A stretch of DNA of 64,000 bases from Levilactobacillus acidifarinae DSM 19394 = JCM 15949. GTDB lineage: Bacteria; Bacillota; Bacilli; Lactobacillales; Lactobacillaceae. Location of the stretch: the NCBI RefSeq assembly GCF_001434835.1, contig NZ_AZDV01000023.1:4982-68981 (forward strand), in the 5' to 3' direction. Below the pieces are notes generated by a model. It was not told where the DNA came from and did not search any database. It worked only from the letters and a program-made list of their open reading frames with translations. Of the stretch, positions 15,975-46,428 are shown one piece after another. How positions within the stretch are numbered: position 1 is the first letter of the stretch; each line of letters opens with the position of its first letter. Position numbers and translations under genes: made by a program.

Positions 15975-15985
15975 AAATATAACTA

Positions 15986-16074
15986 ACACTAGGAGTGTCC
16001 GTGTGCGGGCTGAGATGTGACCTTGTCGCAATTCCTTTGAACCTGTCAAGTCCATGCTTGCGAAGGGAACGTGT
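15986..16074 (+). promoter_or_regulatory. TPP riboswitch (THI element)
   Basis: The conserved blocks appear in order: ACTAGGAGTGTCC, GGGCTGAGATG, CCTTTGAACCTG and TGCGAAGGGAACGTGT, pairing 5' ACAC with 3' GTGT. A terminator follows directly, so thiamine pyrophosphate should stop transcription before thiM. Confidence 0.95.
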
Positions 16075-16083
16075 TTGACTGGC

Positions 16084-16133
16084 AACGGCCACCCGTTCAT
16101 TGTAAGAATGGGTGGCCGTTTTGCCGTTTTTTT
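16084..16133 (+). terminator. Riboswitch-controlled terminator
   Basis: AACGGCCACCC / GGGTGGCCGTT stem followed by a run of seven T. It forms the expression platform of the TPP riboswitch. Confidence 0.9.
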
Positions 16134-39626: not shown

Positions 39627-40268
39627 ATGACAAACGTATTAGTTCTTGGGGCTTACGGTAAGATTGCCCAGCTAGCGACACCAATGTTGCTGGCCGATAC
39701 CGACGCACAGTTGACTTTGTTTCTTCGCAACGCACAACGGTTAGCGGCTGCGGCGAGTGACCGGGTCACGGTGGTCGACGGCGACGCCGCTAACGTGAAC
39801 GACCTGGCCCACGCCATGGACGACATGGACGTGGTGTACGCCAACTTAGCGGGCCACAACATCGAAGCCCAAGCCCAGGCGGTCGTGACCGCGATGAAGC
39901 AGGCGGGGGTCAAACGGCTGATTTGGATTTCCACGTTAGGCATTTACGATGAAGTTCCCGGGGCCTTTGGCCAATGGAACCATCAAATGCTCGATGGTGG
40001 GTACCTGGAGACCTATGCGGCAGCTGCTAAGGTGATTGAAGGCTCAACGCTGGATTACACCATTATTCGGCCAGCCTGGCTGTCGAACCACGACGAGGTG
40101 GCCTACGAAACGACCCAGAAGGGGGACCCCTTCAAGGGAACTGAGGTCTCCCGGAAGAGTATTGCGGCGGTCGTTACTAAATTGGTTCAGGATCCTAGTC
40201 AACACGTCCACGACTCGTTGGGGGTTAACAAGCCCAATACTGACGGGGACAAGCCTGCCTGGTACTAA
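39627..40268 (+). CDS. NAD(P)-binding atypical SDR (NmrA/BVR-B-like)
   Basis: 213 aa. The N-terminal LVLGAYGKIAQLATPML is a Rossmann loop of atypical SDRs; NLAGHNIEAQAQAVVTAM, RLIWISTLGIYDE and TIIRPAWL are typical of YwnB/flavin reductase-like proteins. Possible roles are quinone or flavin reduction, or redox sensing. Single gene with GGGG-type RBS. Confidence 0.85.
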   Translation: MTNVLVLGAYGKIAQLATPMLLADTDAQLTLFLRNAQRLAAAASDRVTVVDGDAANVNDLAHAMDDMDVVYANLAGHNIEAQAQAVVTAMKQAGVKRLIWISTLGIYDEVPGAFGQWNHQMLDGGYLETYAAAAKVIEGSTLDYTIIRPAWLSNHDEVAYETTQKGDPFKGTEVSRKSIAAVVTKLVQDPSQHVHDSLGVNKPNTDGDKPAWY

Positions 40269-40389
40269 TTGACCACTAAGCAGGCAAAAAGTGTGCAATT
40301 TAAGACAATACGCTGTATAACTAAAGTGTGCGTTTAAAGATAGCGCATAGCAGTAAGTACCTTACTTAACGGATAACTTATAATCAGAC

Positions 40390-40503
40390 CGAGTCCGCAT
40401 TATAGAACCTTTCCTCCAAACAAGAACCTATAAATTTTGTGGCCGTTGGTTATGGGCTATGCGAACCAAGTACCGACATCCTGGTGGTGCCGGTACTTTT
40501 TTT
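40390..40503 (+). ncRNA. Candidate small RNA with CU-rich seed
   Basis: A -10 TATAAT (40379-40384) precedes about 115 nt. It holds an unpaired TTTCCTCCAAAC (40410-40421), a TTGGTT/AACCAA hairpin (40446-40469) and a terminator AAGTACCG/CGGTACTT with seven T (40468-40503). The 12-nt seed is a perfect complement of the slp1 ribosome binding site (28344-28355). The -35 is poor. Function inferred only. Confidence 0.45.
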
Positions 40504-40550
40504 GTTCAAAGGGGCCAATTTAGCGGGCGATAATTTTTTGAATGTTTTAG

Positions 40551-40579
40551 TTGCAACCGCTTACAAGTCGTGGTATATT
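40551..40579 (+). promoter_or_regulatory. Strong promoter of the large non-coding unit
   Basis: TTGCAA (40551-40556), exactly 17 bp, TATATT (40574-40579) with an extended TGG. Start expected near 40586. Confidence 0.8.
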
Positions 40580-40585
40580 ATAGGC

Positions 40586-41192
40586 GTAGAAAGGATCAGG
40601 GGTGGTCAATTAAGTAACAAGTACCACTTGATCTAGTTGATACAACGTGTCAGTTTCGTAAAGCCGATTTCCGTTTTGACGTAAGTCTGGTTTAGAAGTA
40701 CGAACACCAGTACCAAGCAACAGGTATCAGGCAACATCAGTTACAGCTTCAAGATTTAGTACGATGCGTCAGAACCAACAAGTAAACCTTCTAACGAACT
40801 CTAGGAGAAACAACTGTAAAGCTTCAGGGTTTAGGCACTTCACAAGAATTGAATAGGGTTTTAGTAACACCGTGAAAATTGTTCTGAGATGGATAAACAA
40901 AGTTACACCTAGAGCTCGGAGGTCAGCTTAGTCAGGATCATGCGAGGATTTCAAGAAGAATCGTTAGAGCGTTGACTGGACGAGTTGATGAAGGAATTAA
41001 GGAAATACTGAAAACGGTAGCCGGAAATTAAATAAATGAAAAATGGTTGCGTCAGTTCAGTCGGAAAAATATAGTGTATGAGGCGATTAAGAATTATTAA
41101 GATTACAAGACGGAAATTCCGGGATCACGCCTACCTTTCTACTACCGAGTAGACTTCAAGTTGATTCTTTATCTAACTTGAAGTCTATTTTT
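40586..41192 (+). ncRNA. Candidate large structured non-coding RNA (about 610 nt)
   Basis: The region between a consensus promoter and a perfect terminator has no credible ORF in any frame. It is rich in unpaired-looking A-stretches and short stems: GATCA..GTGGT/ACCACTTGATC (40594-40634), CTGGT/ACCAG, TACC/GGTA, and a long-range TTACAG/CTGTAA. A short motif GCTTCA-x-GxTTTAG occurs twice. Size and look recall the large ornate RNAs of Lactobacillales (ROOL, about 600 nt; GOLLD, about 800 nt). I cannot confirm membership, and no prophage genes surround it. Confidence 0.6.
41150..41192 (+). terminator. Terminator of the large non-coding unit
   Basis: Perfect 13-bp stem TAGACTTCAAGTT / AACTTGAAGTCTA followed by TTTTT. 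Confidence 0.9.
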
Positions 41193-41517
41193 GACTCCTA
41201 GAATTAGACGGGGAAACCAGTAGTTAAGAATATGACTTAAACAAACGTTCAGACTTTAGTTAGCCATTTGAGTCGGAATTTAAGGGAAAATTGCCCCACG
41301 TAAATCCTTTTAACTCGAATGACAGCGGTTACGAAACGCTGATTTGGCGCCCTTATCCGTTAATTGGTTAATGGGCACAATGTTCGGAAAAAACTGTTTT
41401 TTACGATTTTCTTAAATCGGGGATTTACAGCGCTTTATTGAAAAGGTATATTATTACTAAGGCCCACAACGAATTGAGTTGTGAGAAACCGTTTATGGAA
41501 AGAGGGAGTGAGCAAAC

Positions 41518-42345
41518 GTGGCCTTTCATCGCATTTTCGTTGTTGATTTTGCTGGCTTGGGATTGGGCGAGGCGTCCGATGCCAACCGCTTTCAATCCGT
41601 AGGTGCCGACACGCTTGGTCACGTCGCCGTTAGTTGGCCCGGTCAACTAAAGCTCCCAACATTACAGCAACTCGGCCTCGGCAATATTCGGATTGACCAT
41701 CCCGTCGCTGGTGTTGAACCGGTCGAACACCCCTTAGGGTTCTACGGCCGCCTTCACATGGCGGCGCAGGGTAACCGGCGACCCACGGGGCTACGGGAGA
41801 TGTGGGACTATACCGGCGAGATTCGCACGGAAAACGTGTTTACCACGTTGACGGCTGCGGGTTATCCCGTCACCTTGGCCGGTCCGTTTCTCAGCTACCT
41901 CGCCACCCAGACACCGGCGAGTCGGTATCAGGTGGGCAGTAACCAAGCCAGCTTCCGCATCCTTTACGAGCGGCTGAACGATCCAGCTTCCGGGTTGACT
42001 TACATTTGTCTACCGGAGATGCGGTTTGCCGGTGAGCACCAAGACCTGATGGGGTTTGGCACCGCGTTAAGCGCGGCCGACCATTACCTGGAACAGGTGG
42101 TCCATGACATGGGTGCCAACGACCTGTTGATCGTCACGGCGACCCACGCCGCGGACCCGACCTTCGGGTTAACGCCGACCCGGGAGTATTTGCCATTACT
42201 GGTATACTCCCCATCACGGGCGAACGGGTTCGCGTTGGGAATCCGGCGGACCTTAGCCGACGTCGGTGCCACCATCCTCGAGAACTACGGGGTGGCCGCG
42301 ACCAGTGCCGGACATAGTTTATTAAATGAAATTACGCAAATCTGA
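41518..42345 (+). CDS. Phosphopentomutase-like protein, probably inactive (DeoB family)
   Basis: 275 aa from GTG (GGGAG at 9 nt). Alignable with DeoB at both ends: VVDFAGLGLGEASDA, ADTLGHVA, LPTLQQLGLG, Thr90 in RPTGLREMW, and LLIVTATHAADP...TREYLPLLVYS. It is about 110 residues shorter than DeoB, chiefly in the cap domain. Several metal ligands are gone: TADHG has become TATHA, TDHTRE has become LTPTRE, and the DxxxGH pair is absent. Asp10, Thr90 and His210 remain. It may be a pseudoenzyme or sensor. It precedes nucleoside transport genes. Confidence 0.75.
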   Translation: MAFHRIFVVDFAGLGLGEASDANRFQSVGADTLGHVAVSWPGQLKLPTLQQLGLGNIRIDHPVAGVEPVEHPLGFYGRLHMAAQGNRRPTGLREMWDYTGEIRTENVFTTLTAAGYPVTLAGPFLSYLATQTPASRYQVGSNQASFRILYERLNDPASGLTYICLPEMRFAGEHQDLMGFGTALSAADHYLEQVVHDMGANDLLIVTATHAADPTFGLTPTREYLPLLVYSPSRANGFALGIRRTLADVGATILENYGVAATSAGHSLLNEITQI

Positions 42346-42588
42346 CGAACAAATCCTTGAAAGGAGGTGAGGGAGAGCAACAGTCTGTATTAACGGTTGA
42401 AAGCGCAAGGACTAACGGCAGCTATATCACTTATTCAAAATTACCAATCCCGTTAGGCTTTCTCGTTAAGGCAGTGTCGTTCGTAACAGAAATTATGCGT
42501 ACATAGTTTCTGCCGTAACATCGCGTCGTAACGTGTCGAGTGGGGCGCCACCACACGTTAAATATATCGGAAAGAGGTATTTTGACCA
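42346..42588. other. Leader region of nupC
   Basis: 243 bp with hairpins CAGAAA/TTTCTG and AACGTGT..GTGG/CCAC..ACACGTT (42529-42560), and a partial cre-like TTGAAAGCGCAAGG (42399-42412). No T-run follows the hairpins, so any control would be on translation or RNA stability. Confidence 0.4.
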
Positions 42589-43860
42589 ATGTTAGTCGTA
42601 ATCAACATCATTGGGGTACTTGTGTACCTTGCCATCGCTTTTCTGTTCTCTAAGGACAAGAAAAACGTCAACTGGCGTTCAACTATTATTGTTTTAGTAA
42701 TTAACCTGTTACTCGCTTGGGTTCTGACCAGTTTCGCGTTTGGGCGTGACATCGTTAAGGGTGCCGCCGACGGATTCAACTGGTTAGTTCAAGTTTCCTA
42801 TCAAGGGATTGTGTTCGCCTTACCAAACTGGGTTACCCCAGAATTTGGTGGGACTGCCAAGGCCATGAACTTCGTGACCAGCGCGCTGCTACCAATCTTG
42901 ATGATTGTCCCATTGTTCGATATCTTGACTTACATCGGGGTATTGCCATGGATCATCAAGTGGGTTGGTCGTGGACTTTCCTTCATCACTGGTCAACCGA
43001 AGTTTGAATCATTCTTCTCCGTTGAAATGATGTTCTTAGGGAACACTGAAGCCTTAGCCGTTTCCAAGTTACAATTACAAACCATGCGTAAGGAACGTGA
43101 CGTCACGTTAGCCATGATGTCCATGTCCTGTGTCACCGCTTCAATTTTAGGGGCGTACACGCAAATGGTTCCTGGCCAATTTGTTTTGACCGCCGTTCCA
43201 TTGAACATTTTAAACGCGATTATTGTTACCAACATCCTGAACCCCGTTAAAGTGGGTCCTGAAGAAGATACCATCGCTAAGATGGGTGGCTCAAGCAGTA
43301 ACGCTGAAGCCTCAGTTGCCGATGAAGCTGCTGATGCTAAGACGCCTCGCGAACCATTCTTCTCCTTCTTGGGTGACTCCATCTTGGGTGCCGGCCGTCT
43401 GATCTTGATCATCGCCGCTAACGTTATCGCCTTCGTGGCCTTAGCCGCTATGATCGATAAGATCTTGGCTCTGTTCAACCCATGGTTGAGTTTGGAACAC
43501 ATCTTAGGGATCATCATGTTCCCATTTGCTTGGTTAATGGGTCTGAACGTCCACGACGCCTTCGGCTTTGCCCAATACATGGGGACCAAGTTAGTTACGA
43601 ACGAATTCGTTGTTATGGGTAAGTTGACCACTATTATCAACAACCCTCACTACTTCTCACCTCACTACCGTGCCATCTTGACCGTCTTCATCACTTCCTT
43701 CGCCAACTTCTCGACGACTGGGATGATCATCGGTGCCTTCAAGGGTATGGTTGACCAAGAAAAGAACGATTTGATTTCCAAGAACGTTGGTTACATGTTA
43801 CTTTCTGGGATTCTGGTTTCTCTGCTTTCTGCCGGGATCGTTGGACTCTTCGTTTGGTAA
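42589..43860 (+). CDS. nupC: Concentrative nucleoside transporter (CNT/NupC family)
   Basis: 423 aa with about ten hydrophobic segments. CNT signatures: FFSVEMMFLGNTEALAVSKLQ, SCVTASILGAYTQMVPGQF and FANFSTTGMIIGAFKG. It takes up nucleosides by H+ or Na+ symport. A Ser/Ala/Asp-rich cytosolic loop lies at about 235-260. Codon use is biased, suggesting strong expression. Part of the nucleoside cluster. Confidence 0.93.
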   Translation: MLVVINIIGVLVYLAIAFLFSKDKKNVNWRSTIIVLVINLLLAWVLTSFAFGRDIVKGAADGFNWLVQVSYQGIVFALPNWVTPEFGGTAKAMNFVTSALLPILMIVPLFDILTYIGVLPWIIKWVGRGLSFITGQPKFESFFSVEMMFLGNTEALAVSKLQLQTMRKERDVTLAMMSMSCVTASILGAYTQMVPGQFVLTAVPLNILNAIIVTNILNPVKVGPEEDTIAKMGGSSSNAEASVADEAADAKTPREPFFSFLGDSILGAGRLILIIAANVIAFVALAAMIDKILALFNPWLSLEHILGIIMFPFAWLMGLNVHDAFGFAQYMGTKLVTNEFVVMGKLTTIINNPHYFSPHYRAILTVFITSFANFSTTGMIIGAFKGMVDQEKNDLISKNVGYMLLSGILVSLLSAGIVGLFVW

Positions 43861-43889
43861 TCAGATAAGCTTTAATGAGTATCAACAAA

Positions 43890-43922
43890 AGATAGCCCAG
43901 GGGCCTGGCCACTGGGCTATCT
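43890..43922. terminator. Hairpin after nupC
   Basis: Perfect AGATAGCCCAG / CTGGGCTATCT stem. The T-run is only on the minus side, so on the plus strand it may be a partial terminator or an RNA-stability hairpin. Confidence 0.6.
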
Positions 43923-43955
43923 GTGTCAGGTGACCTCGCGGTTAGGGTTATACGG

Positions 43956-44038
43956 GGTCTCGGCTGATGCGCGTCATCGGCCGTACGGGTGCCGACCTCC
44001 CTAGCAGGGGAGTGAAACCCAGCCGGGTGCGTGAGACC
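43956..44038 (+). promoter_or_regulatory. Candidate structured leader (three-way junction) of the NCS2 permease gene
   Basis: A closing stem GGTCTC/GAGACC (43956-43961 / 44033-44038) encloses an 8-bp hairpin GGCTGATG/CATCGGCC (43962-43982) and a second arm GGGT/ACCC topped by CTCCC/GGGAG-type pairing. It lies 65 nt before the ATG, with no terminator after it. It does not match the purine, PRPP, xanthine or guanidine riboswitches as I know them. Confidence 0.4.
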
Positions 44039-44103
44039 ATTCGGTTGCAAAGCCCGTGAAGTCTGTACGTCGGAATGTGGCGTATTGAAAGATAGGGAAA
44101 TCT

Positions 44104-45438
44104 ATGGATAAGCAACAAGCGCAAGCTAAGCAAGCGGAATCGGCCATCGAACGGGCCAACAACATGACGCTGCGCGAAGCTTTGCGAGATAAGGAGGTCG
44201 TTCGCAACGAAATCATTGCGGGCGTGACGGGCTTCTTTGCCATCTCCTACATTATTATTGTGAACCCGCTGATTCTAAAGGACGCGGGGATTCCCACTGA
44301 CCTGAGCGTCTTTGCGACGATCTTCTCGTCCGTGATTGGGTGTCTGATTATGGCCTTCTGGTCCAACGCCCCAATCATCTTGACGCCAGGAATGGGAGTC
44401 AACGCCTTCTTCACCTACACGATTGTGGTCAACATGGGCCTCAGTTGGCAGGAAGCCTTGGGAATCGCGGCTGTCGCCAGTTTTGCGTACATGCTGATTG
44501 CCTTCACCAAGGTGTCGACCATTCTCTCGGAGGCGATTCCCGAATCGCTGAAGAGTGGGATTACCGCAGGAATTGGGCTCTTTCTGGTCGAAATTGGCCT
44601 GGAAAAAGCGGGCCTGATTGTCGCCGGTAAGTCGTCACTGATCGTGTTGGGTGACTTGACCAAGCCTACGCCGTTACTCGCGTTGTTCGGGTTGGTCTTG
44701 AGTTTAATTCTGTTCTTACGGAAGATTAAAGGGAACTTCTTCATTGCCATCATTGCCACGAGTCTGCTGGCGTTCTTCTTGGGCGTCAAAGACAGTGATA
44801 CGCCCAACGTGGACCTCGCACGGTTGGGGCAATACCACAAGATCGTGTTCCAAAACGACTTCTCCCATTTGATTAGCACGCCGTTTATCTTGGCCGCCTT
44901 TTCGATGACCATGATTCTGGTGTTCGAATCCATGGGACTCTTGCAAGGGTTACTCCCGAACAAAAAGAAGTTTAAGAAGACCTTCGAAGGCAGTTCCGTC
45001 ACCACCTTCCTCTCCGGCTTTATGGGGACCAGCCCAACTGTGGCGGCCGCCGAAAGTGCTTCGGGGATCGAAAGTGGGGGCCGGACCGGGATCATGGCGT
45101 TAGTCGCCGCGGTGCTGTTTGCCCTATCACTGATCTTTGTGCCGCTATTGGCCTACGTGCCATCCGCCGCAATTGCGCCCGTGATTATCATTACGGGGGC
45201 GCTCATGATGGCCGCGATTGGCAACATTCAGATGGCGGACTTCTCTGAATGGTTCCCCGCGTTTTTAATCATCGTGTTGATTCCATTCACCAATAGTATT
45301 TCGACCGGATTGGCCTTTGGATTTGTGGCTTACCCGATTATGAAACTCGCCATCGGCAAGGGTAAAACCCTGACCTGGCCAGTTTACCTGCTGGGAGTAC
45401 TGTTCCTACTGGACTTGGTCTTTAGTGCCATGCTCTAG
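44104..45438 (+). CDS. NCS2-family purine permease (AzgA/PbuG-like)
   Basis: 444 aa, about 12-14 hydrophobic segments. The motif NPLILKDAGIP, TPGMGVNAFFTY and FMGTSPTVAAAESASGIESGGRTG are typical of the hypoxanthine/guanine/adenine permease subgroup. A Gln/Ala-rich N-terminal tail is cytosolic. It imports nucleobases by proton symport. Neighbours support purine salvage: nupC upstream, nucleoside hydrolase downstream. Confidence 0.9.
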   Translation: MDKQQAQAKQAESAIERANNMTLREALRDKEVVRNEIIAGVTGFFAISYIIIVNPLILKDAGIPTDLSVFATIFSSVIGCLIMAFWSNAPIILTPGMGVNAFFTYTIVVNMGLSWQEALGIAAVASFAYMLIAFTKVSTILSEAIPESLKSGITAGIGLFLVEIGLEKAGLIVAGKSSLIVLGDLTKPTPLLALFGLVLSLILFLRKIKGNFFIAIIATSLLAFFLGVKDSDTPNVDLARLGQYHKIVFQNDFSHLISTPFILAAFSMTMILVFESMGLLQGLLPNKKKFKKTFEGSSVTTFLSGFMGTSPTVAAAESASGIESGGRTGIMALVAAVLFALSLIFVPLLAYVPSAAIAPVIIITGALMMAAIGNIQMADFSEWFPAFLIIVLIPFTNSISTGLAFGFVAYPIMKLAIGKGKTLTWPVYLLGVLFLLDLVFSAML

Positions 45439-45513
45439 TAGGGCGTGCTTTCCCGGTAAAACGTAAGCGGTTACGAGCTGTTAAATTTGAGTACTTTTTA
45501 GGAGGAAATAAAA

Positions 45514-46428
45514 ATGACGATTAAGATTTTAATGGATACCGACCCCGGAATTGACGATGCTGCTGCCTTAACCATGGCGATTAACGACCCCAAGATTGAC
45601 TTGAAGTTGGTCACCACGGTGGCGGGTAACGTGACGGTCGACAAGACCACCAAGAACGCTTTGAAGATTATGCGGTTCTTTAACCAAGATATTCCAGTTG
45701 CGGCTGGTGCCGAACAACCTTTGTTCAAGGACTTCGAAGATGCTGCGCGGATTCACGGGGAATCCGGGATGCCTGGTTACGACTTCCCAGAAGACCTGCC
45801 GAAGCCATTGAACAAGACGGCCGTGGAAGCCTTACACGACGCCATCATGGCTAGCAACGACCCGATTACCTTAGTGCCAACCGGATCGTACACCAACATC
45901 GCTTTACTCTTCTCCGAATATCCAGAAGTGAAGAGCCACATCGACCGGATTGTGGCCATGGGTGGTGCCTTAGGTAAGGGGAACATGACCAGTGCGGCCG
46001 AATTCAACGTCTTCACCGACCCAGATGCCGCCGCCATCGTCTACAAGTCTGGTATTCCGATCGTCATGGTGGGCTTGGACATCACCATGAAGGCCTTATT
46101 GACCAACGAAAACATCGAAAAGCTCCAACACTTGAATGAAGCCGGGCAAATGTTGCACGACATCATCATCAACGATGGGGACCACAACGACAAGGGGAGT
46201 GCGATGCACGATGTCAACACCATCTTCTACCTCTTGCACCCAGAAGCCATCAAGACCGAAGACATGTGGGTTGACGTGGTGACCCAAGGCCCAGCCATTG
46301 GGGAAACTGTCGGCGACATCCGTGGGGCTTACCACAACGGCAAGACCAACGCTAAGGTGTCCGTGGACATCGACGACCAAGCCTTCAACGACTGGTTCAT
46401 GGAAGAAGTTAAGAACATTAAGATGTAA
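45514..46428 (+). CDS. Inosine/uridine-type nucleoside hydrolase
   Basis: 304 aa. The Ca2+-binding signature MDTDPGIDDAAAL at the N-terminus, GNVTVDKTTKNAL, VPTGSYTNIALL and AEFNVFTDPDAAAIV mark the IunH family. It splits ribonucleosides into base and ribose, so imported nucleosides can feed both base salvage and pentose catabolism. RBS AGGAGG. Strong terminator downstream. Confidence 0.93.
   Translation: MTIKILMDTDPGIDDAAALTMAINDPKIDLKLVTTVAGNVTVDKTTKNALKIMRFFNQDIPVAAGAEQPLFKDFEDAARIHGESGMPGYDFPEDLPKPLNKTAVEALHDAIMASNDPITLVPTGSYTNIALLFSEYPEVKSHIDRIVAMGGALGKGNMTSAAEFNVFTDPDAAAIVYKSGIPIVMVGLDITMKALLTNENIEKLQHLNEAGQMLHDIIINDGDHNDKGSAMHDVNTIFYLLHPEAIKTEDMWVDVVTQGPAIGETVGDIRGAYHNGKTNAKVSVDIDDQAFNDWFMEEVKNIKM

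Follow-up and report, generated by a model that had tools for sequence, protein, structure and literature searches.

A candidate gene for a large, conserved non-coding RNA with a cre-type promoter in Levilactobacillus and two other genera of lactobacilli

Bacteria have few large structured RNAs, and in lactobacilli the most familiar examples are tied to phages or plasmids. A 2017 survey reportedly put forward 224 candidate RNAs. ROOL spans about 600 nt and is reported to form a multimeric cage made of RNA only; OLE is also near 600 nt and has a conserved adjacent membrane-protein partner. RsaI of Staphylococcus and SR1 of Bacillus are CcpA-linked regulatory RNAs of Firmicutes. According to PMC12286853, phages and prophages encode ROOL, as does a megaplasmid in L. 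salivarius; the same paper cites the lncRNA of PMC5643018, from L. salivarius, under ROOL, and gives GOLLD a phage and tRNA-island setting with many members above 800 nt. For the 6S RNA of lactic acid bacteria, PMC8414754 reports a closing stem, a usual position between rarA and uspA and, in about a third of these bacteria, a cre over the -35 box that is judged likely inhibitory. PMC5643018 describes the L. plantarum supermotifs (LPSM) as non-coding RNAs of 800-1000 nt, present in many copies in one species only.

Here we analyse a window of 64,000 nt (the whole stretch of DNA under study) from Levilactobacillus acidifarinae, in which a candidate RNA gene is flanked by an NmrA-like NAD(P)-binding gene on one side and by several nucleoside genes on the other. 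The transcription unit and its downstream neighbours comprise the following features.

40551-40579, + strand: promoter, with -35 box TTGCAA at 40551-40556, a 17-nt spacer and extended -10 TGGTATATT; kept across the genus alignment
40551-40565, + strand: cre-like (CcpA/LacI-family) operator TTGCAACCGCTTACA over the -35 box, fitting the consensus WTGNAANCGNWNNCW
40586-41192, + strand: large RNA of about 607 nt, its start placed from the -10 box
41078-41152, + strand: 24-codon frame, open in the window genus only
41149-41192, + strand: intrinsic terminator, 13-bp stem and T5; kept, with compensations in the alignment
41380-41452, + strand: own promoter of the nucleoside locus, TTTACA-17-TATATT at 41424-41452, with a PurBox-like site at 41380-41391
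41518-46428, + strand: nucleoside locus (short phosphopentomutase-like protein, NupC, xanthine/uracil-type permease, RihC-type nucleoside hydrolase), downstream in three genera

The window RNA resembles ROOL in being a structured RNA of roughly 600 nt from lactobacilli with no known coding role or assigned function; unlike ROOL, it has a cre-type promoter, no match to the Rfam ROOL model and, in searches of plasmid and phage collections with the window unit and two relatives, no homologue. Nor is the setting that of ROOL (phage, prophage or megaplasmid, often near tRNAs), since metabolic genes adjoin the unit and the 64-kb window holds no tRNA. GOLLD is likewise a giant structured RNA known from Lactobacillales (PMC12286853), and OLE a large structured RNA of similar length, but the window RNA matches neither covariance model. 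It also differs from OLE in having no conserved adjacent membrane-protein partner. With 6S RNA it shares a stand-alone gene, a closing stem and a cre over the -35 box; however, 6S RNA is about 200 nt long, has a canonical bulge and occupies the rarA-uspA locus. The 6S model RF00013 had no match in the unit region or elsewhere in the organism's own genome, the same model being positive in 8 of 14 controls, and a scan of 27 neighbouring proteins gave no rarA or uspA annotation, the window neighbours being the NmrA-like and nucleoside genes. RsaI and SR1 offer a parallel as regulatory RNAs under sugar control, a property that the operator suggests for the window RNA, but they are short, act by base pairing and have no large multi-helix architecture. 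The LPSM are large non-coding RNAs of a lactobacillus too; the window RNA, in contrast, is usually single copy and extends across genera.

Rfam 15 returned no family at gathering level for the unit, and even with the threshold relaxed to E 5 the transcribed strand of 40000-41700 had no match; two permissive matches, isrN (E 0.039) and MIR2619 (E 3.9), lie downstream on the opposite strand, and nine loci of relatives had no match inside the unit. By the tests run, the RNA is not a member of ROOL, GOLLD, OLE or 6S. The initial annotation had proposed a ROOL- or GOLLD-type RNA or else a new class, and named the Rfam models for a search; that search has now been run, the unit matches neither ROOL, GOLLD nor OLE, and with no phage or plasmid association found the first of these proposals is not supported. 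The RNA appears to represent a new sequence family; objects of its kind have precedents. Among the titles and abstract openings of the literature searched, no earlier description came to light. Elsewhere in the window, a TPP riboswitch at 15981-16086 is the sole Rfam match at gathering level.

The consensus-like extended -10 promoter first described (TTGCAA-17-TATATT; -10 box at 40574-40579, TG at 40571-40572) is present at 40551-40579 and in 35/35 genus genomes. A consensus scan alone gave four promoter-like sites in comparison with 3.2 expected, which is not beyond chance; the call is nevertheless credible because the promoter is kept in all 35 genomes. At the other end, the terminator arms TAGACTTCAAGTT and AACTTGAAGTCTA form a perfect 13-bp stem with a 12-nt loop, followed by T5 (-22 kcal/mol), just as had been read from the letters. 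Its omission from the automated terminator scan is probably due to a loop limit of 8 in that scan. The RNA has a G+C content of 39%, against 51% for the window. Its longest open reading frame on either strand of 40586-41192 encodes 43 aa, a length reached or exceeded in 250 of 300 dinucleotide shuffles; hence the region is ORF-poor, and the earlier description of about 610 bp without a credible frame holds for these 607 nt or so.

Conservation of the unit is genus-wide. When 58 genomes, the organism's own included, were searched by BLAST, all 35 Levilactobacillus genomes had one strong place each (E 0 to 3e-14; homologue length 560-620 nt), and 23 genomes of other families gave no convincing match (best E 0.003). 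The initial annotation had named a lack of conservation in sister species as a finding against it; the unit is conserved in every one of these 35 genomes. A BLAST search of 397 family genomes found matches in 25, all of the window genus. Scanning named genomes with a pattern yielded at least 80 stretches, of which at least 29 belong to Levilactobacillus (brevis, zymae, spicheri, koreensis and others) and two to unclassified Lactobacillus; the remaining 49 among the pattern matches listed are of the order of chance expectation, estimated at about 30.

Profile models extended this range. Model R1, trained on the window genus only and run on the 397 family genomes, matched 13 genomes of a second genus, g37 (E 6e-12 to 1e-19), with weak matches in a third, g31; model R2, representing the core shared by the three genera, added further g31 genomes. 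With these models (E <= 0.001) the unit was found in 13/15 g37 and 21/24 g31 genomes, two and three genomes respectively being without an R2 match. The g37 and g31 loci carry their parts in the order seen in the window genus, namely operator, promoter, closing stem, P1b, P2, UUGAGGCGAUWA motif and terminator, and the transcripts of the two genera measure 603-709 nt (13 loci) and 616-759 nt (8 loci). G186, at a contig edge, was left out of the g31 transcript set, and G006, with a long insert, out of alignment A3. We inspected 16 R2 matches outside the training set. Fourteen lie in g31, 12 of them with a strict-pattern cre-type operator, and, two second copies excepted, these g31 matches have same-orientation nucleoside genes downstream wherever the contig reaches.

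Several matches were discarded. R2 matches G540 and G170, both false, and R1 matches G205, G408:C128, G358:C4 and G393 were dropped for want of an operator, of partner genes or of similarity. In an order-wide R2 search of 345 genomes, eight genomes outside the family passed E 0.05: G540 was the best (E 6.6e-5) and the sole one below 0.008, without operator and neighbours, and the other seven were weak (E 0.009-0.05). Further weak R1 matches fell in G120, G174, G219, G315, G333, G345 and G387 (E 0.013-0.097), and six further weak R2 matches lay within the family (E 0.012-0.04).

The predicted fold has the following elements, all within the transcript.

40586-40594, + strand: P1 5' strand GUAGAAAGG of the 5'/3' closing stem, pairing with 41134-41142; genus-specific compensation
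40599-40608, + strand: P1b 5' strand, GUUGUGA in most members, pairing with 41125-41133
40666-40676, + strand: P2 5' strand GAUUUCCGUUU, pairing with 41108-41118
40787-40994, + strand: central multibranch domain of the consensus fold, with pairs changed on both sides
40787-40791/40990-40994, 40795-40805/40908-40918 and 40922-40989, + strand: P4, P5 and P7-P8 of the consensus fold
41017-41050, + strand: 3' hairpin 41017-41022/41045-41050, then a conserved GCGRCAG-type motif
41078-41096, + strand: conserved motif AUGAGGCGAUUAAGAAUUA; UUGAGGCGAUWA..AUUA in the other genera
41108-41118, + strand: P2 3' strand of the consensus fold
41134-41142, + strand: P1 3' strand CCUUUCUAC, pairing with 40586-40594

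P1 is maintained by compensation, as GGAAAGG/CCUUUCC, GGAAGAGA/UCUCUUCC and GGAAGGGA/UCCCUUCC in three genera, with GUAGAAAGG/CCUUUCUAC within the window genus; the automatic P1 finder took another helix in rows G029, G034, G006, G209, G422, G070 and G296. The 3' strand of P1 bears what we take to be a resemblance to the 3' end of 16S rRNA. For P1b, 19 to 23 of 23 sequences pair, depending on position, and an equivalent stem exists in g37 and g31; P2 recurs in these two genera as CCCGUUUUGUA/UACGAAACGGG and ACCUACUU/AAGUGGGU. In the hairpin at 41017-41050, the sole stem in model R2, all 23 non-redundant sequences pair at all six positions. P1, P1b and P2 are the long-range pairings kept in the alignment, from which the TTACAG/CTGTAA pairing suggested initially is absent.

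Covariation was assessed on 23 of the 35 sequences, chosen at under 97% identity, with a null of 100 alignments preserving the change count of each column on the tree. RNAalifold gave -152.4 kcal/mol with the terminator (null mean -107.3, z -9.5) and -127.7 without it (null mean -90.2, sd 5.8, z -6.4, reached by 0/100 nulls), in a test for which fold and scoring share one alignment. In the consensus fold without terminator, 64 of 100 pairs are always standard and 24 change on both sides. A blind scan of all column pairs with our own implementation found no pair at E < 0.05 (best 0.63), so that support for the structure rests on the structure-level test. Folded singly, the whole RNA scores z -7.0 (20 shuffles); without its last 55 nt the window RNA (G000) scores -1.8, and 15 RNAs of its type (type B, below) average -1.4 (14 shuffles each). 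Much of the stability of the whole RNA is owed to the terminator. Conservation and structure-level covariation together back the initial idea of a giant structured RNA, possibly of a new class, and the intergenic stretch of some 600 nt is very probably a real, conserved and folded RNA gene. Its closing stem and cre operator, its relatives in other genera and the second copies described below had gone unmentioned in the initial annotation.

The genes beside the unit show a pattern of their own. All 35/35 loci of the window genus have the phosphopentomutase-like gene after the RNA, with NupC wherever the locus extends that far; both follow it in 8/8 g31 loci; in g37 the phosphopentomutase-like gene follows in 4/13 loci and NupC directly in the other nine. 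Upstream neighbours vary by genus, being NmrA-like in most of the window genus, a different protein in g31 and, in 10 of 13 g37 loci, what by eye we presume to be ribose-5-phosphate isomerase. The TTTACA-TATATT pair of the nucleoside promoter recurs within 400 nt in 30 of 34 other genus genomes, and about 30 nt 5' of its -35 box lies the PurBox-like site ATGTTCGGAAAA (reverse strand TTTTCCGAACAT) at 41380-41391, kept in most genus genomes. The phosphopentomutase-like protein (41518-42345, 275 aa) scores 144.6 bits, with a curated cutoff of 256, and its best stretch aligns to the C-terminal part of phosphopentomutase models. Between the NmrA-like gene and the RNA promoter, the genus alignment holds a conserved block like TTTCCTCCAAACAAGA (window 40405-40440). 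In g37 loci L143, L144 and L146-L150 a second conserved element lies about 30-200 nt past the RNA terminator; it consists of TATAAT, CCTTGGCAGGGGC, a AAAGGATTTAC hairpin and a T-run, and resembles a small RNA or operon leader.

Two g31 genomes, G347 (L172) and G408 (L174), each contain, at a place unrelated to the nucleoside locus, a complete second copy of the RNA. Similarity between first and second copies runs from just 5' of the -35 box through the T-run, with unlike flanks, and identity over aligned columns, flanks included, is 87% in G347 and 77% in G408. The unit of evolution, as these alignments present it, is the transcription unit. As this unit has itself been duplicated elsewhere, action in trans is the better reading, and the RNA probably acts in trans; the near-constant nucleoside neighbours in three genera would also fit a role in cis. 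A target search with the complement of a conserved 13-mer (<=1 mismatch) gave seven matches, the RNA itself included, little more than the four for reversed-pattern controls.

A wider class came into view with a promoter template (operator, extended -10 and start sequence; <=1 mismatch) drawn from the window genus and g37. Matches came from 131 of 359 family genomes, which represent 21 of 40 genera; a genome usually had one or two, and the organism's own had one. A reversed-pattern template had no match among the matches listed. The template misses the g31 promoters, whose spacer is one nucleotide shorter than in the window genus, and its four g31 matches are other loci. We inspected 40 template loci picked to span genera and, with G151 skipped in the P1 test, 39 had a clear start. 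A terminator lies about 250-890 nt downstream in 38/39, and the first 16 nt pair with a stretch before the terminator over 6-12 bp; against shuffled 5' strands this pairing reached p < 0.05 in 24/39 loci uncorrected and in 18/39 when corrected for terminator number. Rfam matched the unit in 0/20 of these loci at gathering level, ten of them being clean also at E <= 1, and neighbours differ from genus to genus. Template units L191-L230 have a cre-type promoter, a GTGAGGAAAGG-like start and a 3' complement before the terminator, often with a GAGAAG loop, and several genera show a hairpin like GGAGGTGTATGTC..GACAT.

We term the units of the window genus, g37 and g31 type B, and those of at least g55, g22, g50, g41, g42, g30, g28 and two g37 species type A; these two g37 species are without type B. 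Type A carries a AATTGAATA-like string, degenerate in some loci, and TGARGGTG near the 3' end (23/39 loci). A g38 template locus matched the type A model, R3, weakly (E 0.002). The type A motif is absent from 15 loci of g23, g20, g21, g54 and g26, which may be a different or a reduced RNA. The cre-promoter units of these five genera (L196-L203, L219-L224, L226) are mostly shorter, their terminators lying some 250-400 nt downstream. When 23 type A RNAs were folded singly without their last 55 nt, the mean z was -1.7, which is no proof of structure. Type A set A6 was assembled without G373, which was also left out of the single-sequence folding, and without G241 and G146, both missed by the pattern and later matched by R3.

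In type A, the GARGGTG part is similar to the type B motif, and its spacing from the P1 3' strand is comparable. Run on type B loci, R3 gave four matches: the best (E 0.007) lay elsewhere and was false, and the next three (E 0.07-0.12), in closely related g31 genomes, coincided exactly with the R2 core; in the converse search, R2 found one weak match (E 0.13) among type A loci. On these matches homology of types A and B is suggestive only; we hold a common origin to be likely, though short of proof. Both have the same promoter layout, sealed ends, a terminator and, about 50 nt ahead of the P1 3' strand, a GAGGYG..AAG..ATTA-like motif, at unrelated loci. It is an evenly balanced question whether the two are branches of one class of giant RNAs, fast-evolving and under CcpA control, that spans the Lactobacillaceae, such that nearly every lactobacillus may carry an unrecognised core RNA of this kind, switched on at sugar exhaustion.

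Taken together, these comparisons lead us to favour, with somewhat better than even confidence, the reading of 40551-41192 as a gene that stands alone and yields a large, structured non-coding RNA outside Rfam, repressed by CcpA on sugar and acting in trans. The unit might instead serve the nucleoside locus as an exceptionally long 5' leader or attenuator, with ligand- or protein-controlled read-through of the 41149-41192 terminator feeding nupC, as the same-strand nucleoside genes downstream in three genera would suggest. Complete second copies away from such genes speak against it, as do the conserved promoter and PurBox-like site that the nucleoside genes of the window genus possess, the different neighbours of related-looking units in other genera and the lack, by eye, of a conserved antiterminator pairing in the alignments, and we regard a leader as unlikely. 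A dual-function or messenger RNA for a basic peptide of 22-24 residues (MRRLRI..) starting at 41078 has in its favour a frame open in 35/35 genus genomes, closed by TAG, TAA or TGA, with length steps of whole codons. Yet changes by codon position number 25/36/26, without third-position excess, the first codons are nearly invariant even at silent sites, no clear ribosome site was seen by eye, in other genera 35/35 loci run into a stop at codon 4, and the frame coincides with strands of P1 and P2. The initial annotation had named a conserved frame with synonymous bias as the finding that would overturn it; this was looked for with a negative outcome, and we dropped the small-ORF idea, there being no silent-change excess and no open frame in all homologues. 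We judge the frame incidental and not the explanation of the conservation, and give a genus-specific peptide a small chance; a coding role for the RNA is improbable overall.

A very divergent housekeeping RNA, for example a 6S RNA grown large, would account for the closing stem and for the cre over the -35 box, the latter found in about a third of lactic acid bacteria according to PMC8414754, and the 6S model has no match in the organism's own genome, so that a canonical copy has not been located there. About three times the size of 6S, without an Rfam match and without rarA or uspA annotated among the 27 proteins scanned, the window RNA leaves this explanation a slim chance. Slimmer still is that of a conserved DNA or untranscribed spacer merely resembling an RNA gene, against which stand the pair changes on both sides, the conserved promoter and terminator and a duplication limited to the transcription unit. 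Similar size, many helices and occurrence in lactobacilli are what membership of ROOL, GOLLD or OLE could claim; with no Rfam 15 match in the window unit or the relatives scanned and no phage, plasmid or tRNA-island setting, we find such membership scarcely credible.

For the favoured stand-alone, trans-acting RNA, the operator indicates how expression may be controlled. It fits WTGNAANCGNWNNCW, the cre consensus for CcpA, in 35/35 genus genomes and 21/21 loci of the two other genera, and in all of these it overlaps the -35 box of the promoter, as is expected of a CcpA-regulated gene. We infer that CcpA represses the RNA while a preferred sugar is present; CcpA is named from the motif, and another LacI-family regulator could use the same operator. 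In such a scheme CcpA and its co-repressor, bound to the cre, would block RNA polymerase as long as the preferred sugar lasts, and on its exhaustion the operator would be freed and the RNA made. It would then work in trans as a folded RNA, by way of scaffolding, protein binding or base pairing, and would be neither an mRNA nor the leader of its neighbours. It is tempting to guess at a role in nucleoside or ribose use during carbon starvation, which would fit the usual gene neighbours.

The condition of expression is directly testable by glucose exhaustion and in a ccpA mutant, with laboratory-friendly hosts such as Levilactobacillus brevis and with natural paralogues at hand, and the RNA family offers a large, deeply sampled alignment for work on RNA structure. 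If our reading is true, industrially important bacteria would possess a core, hitherto undescribed regulator or scaffold that is universal in its genus, shared among several genera and free of any phage or plasmid link.
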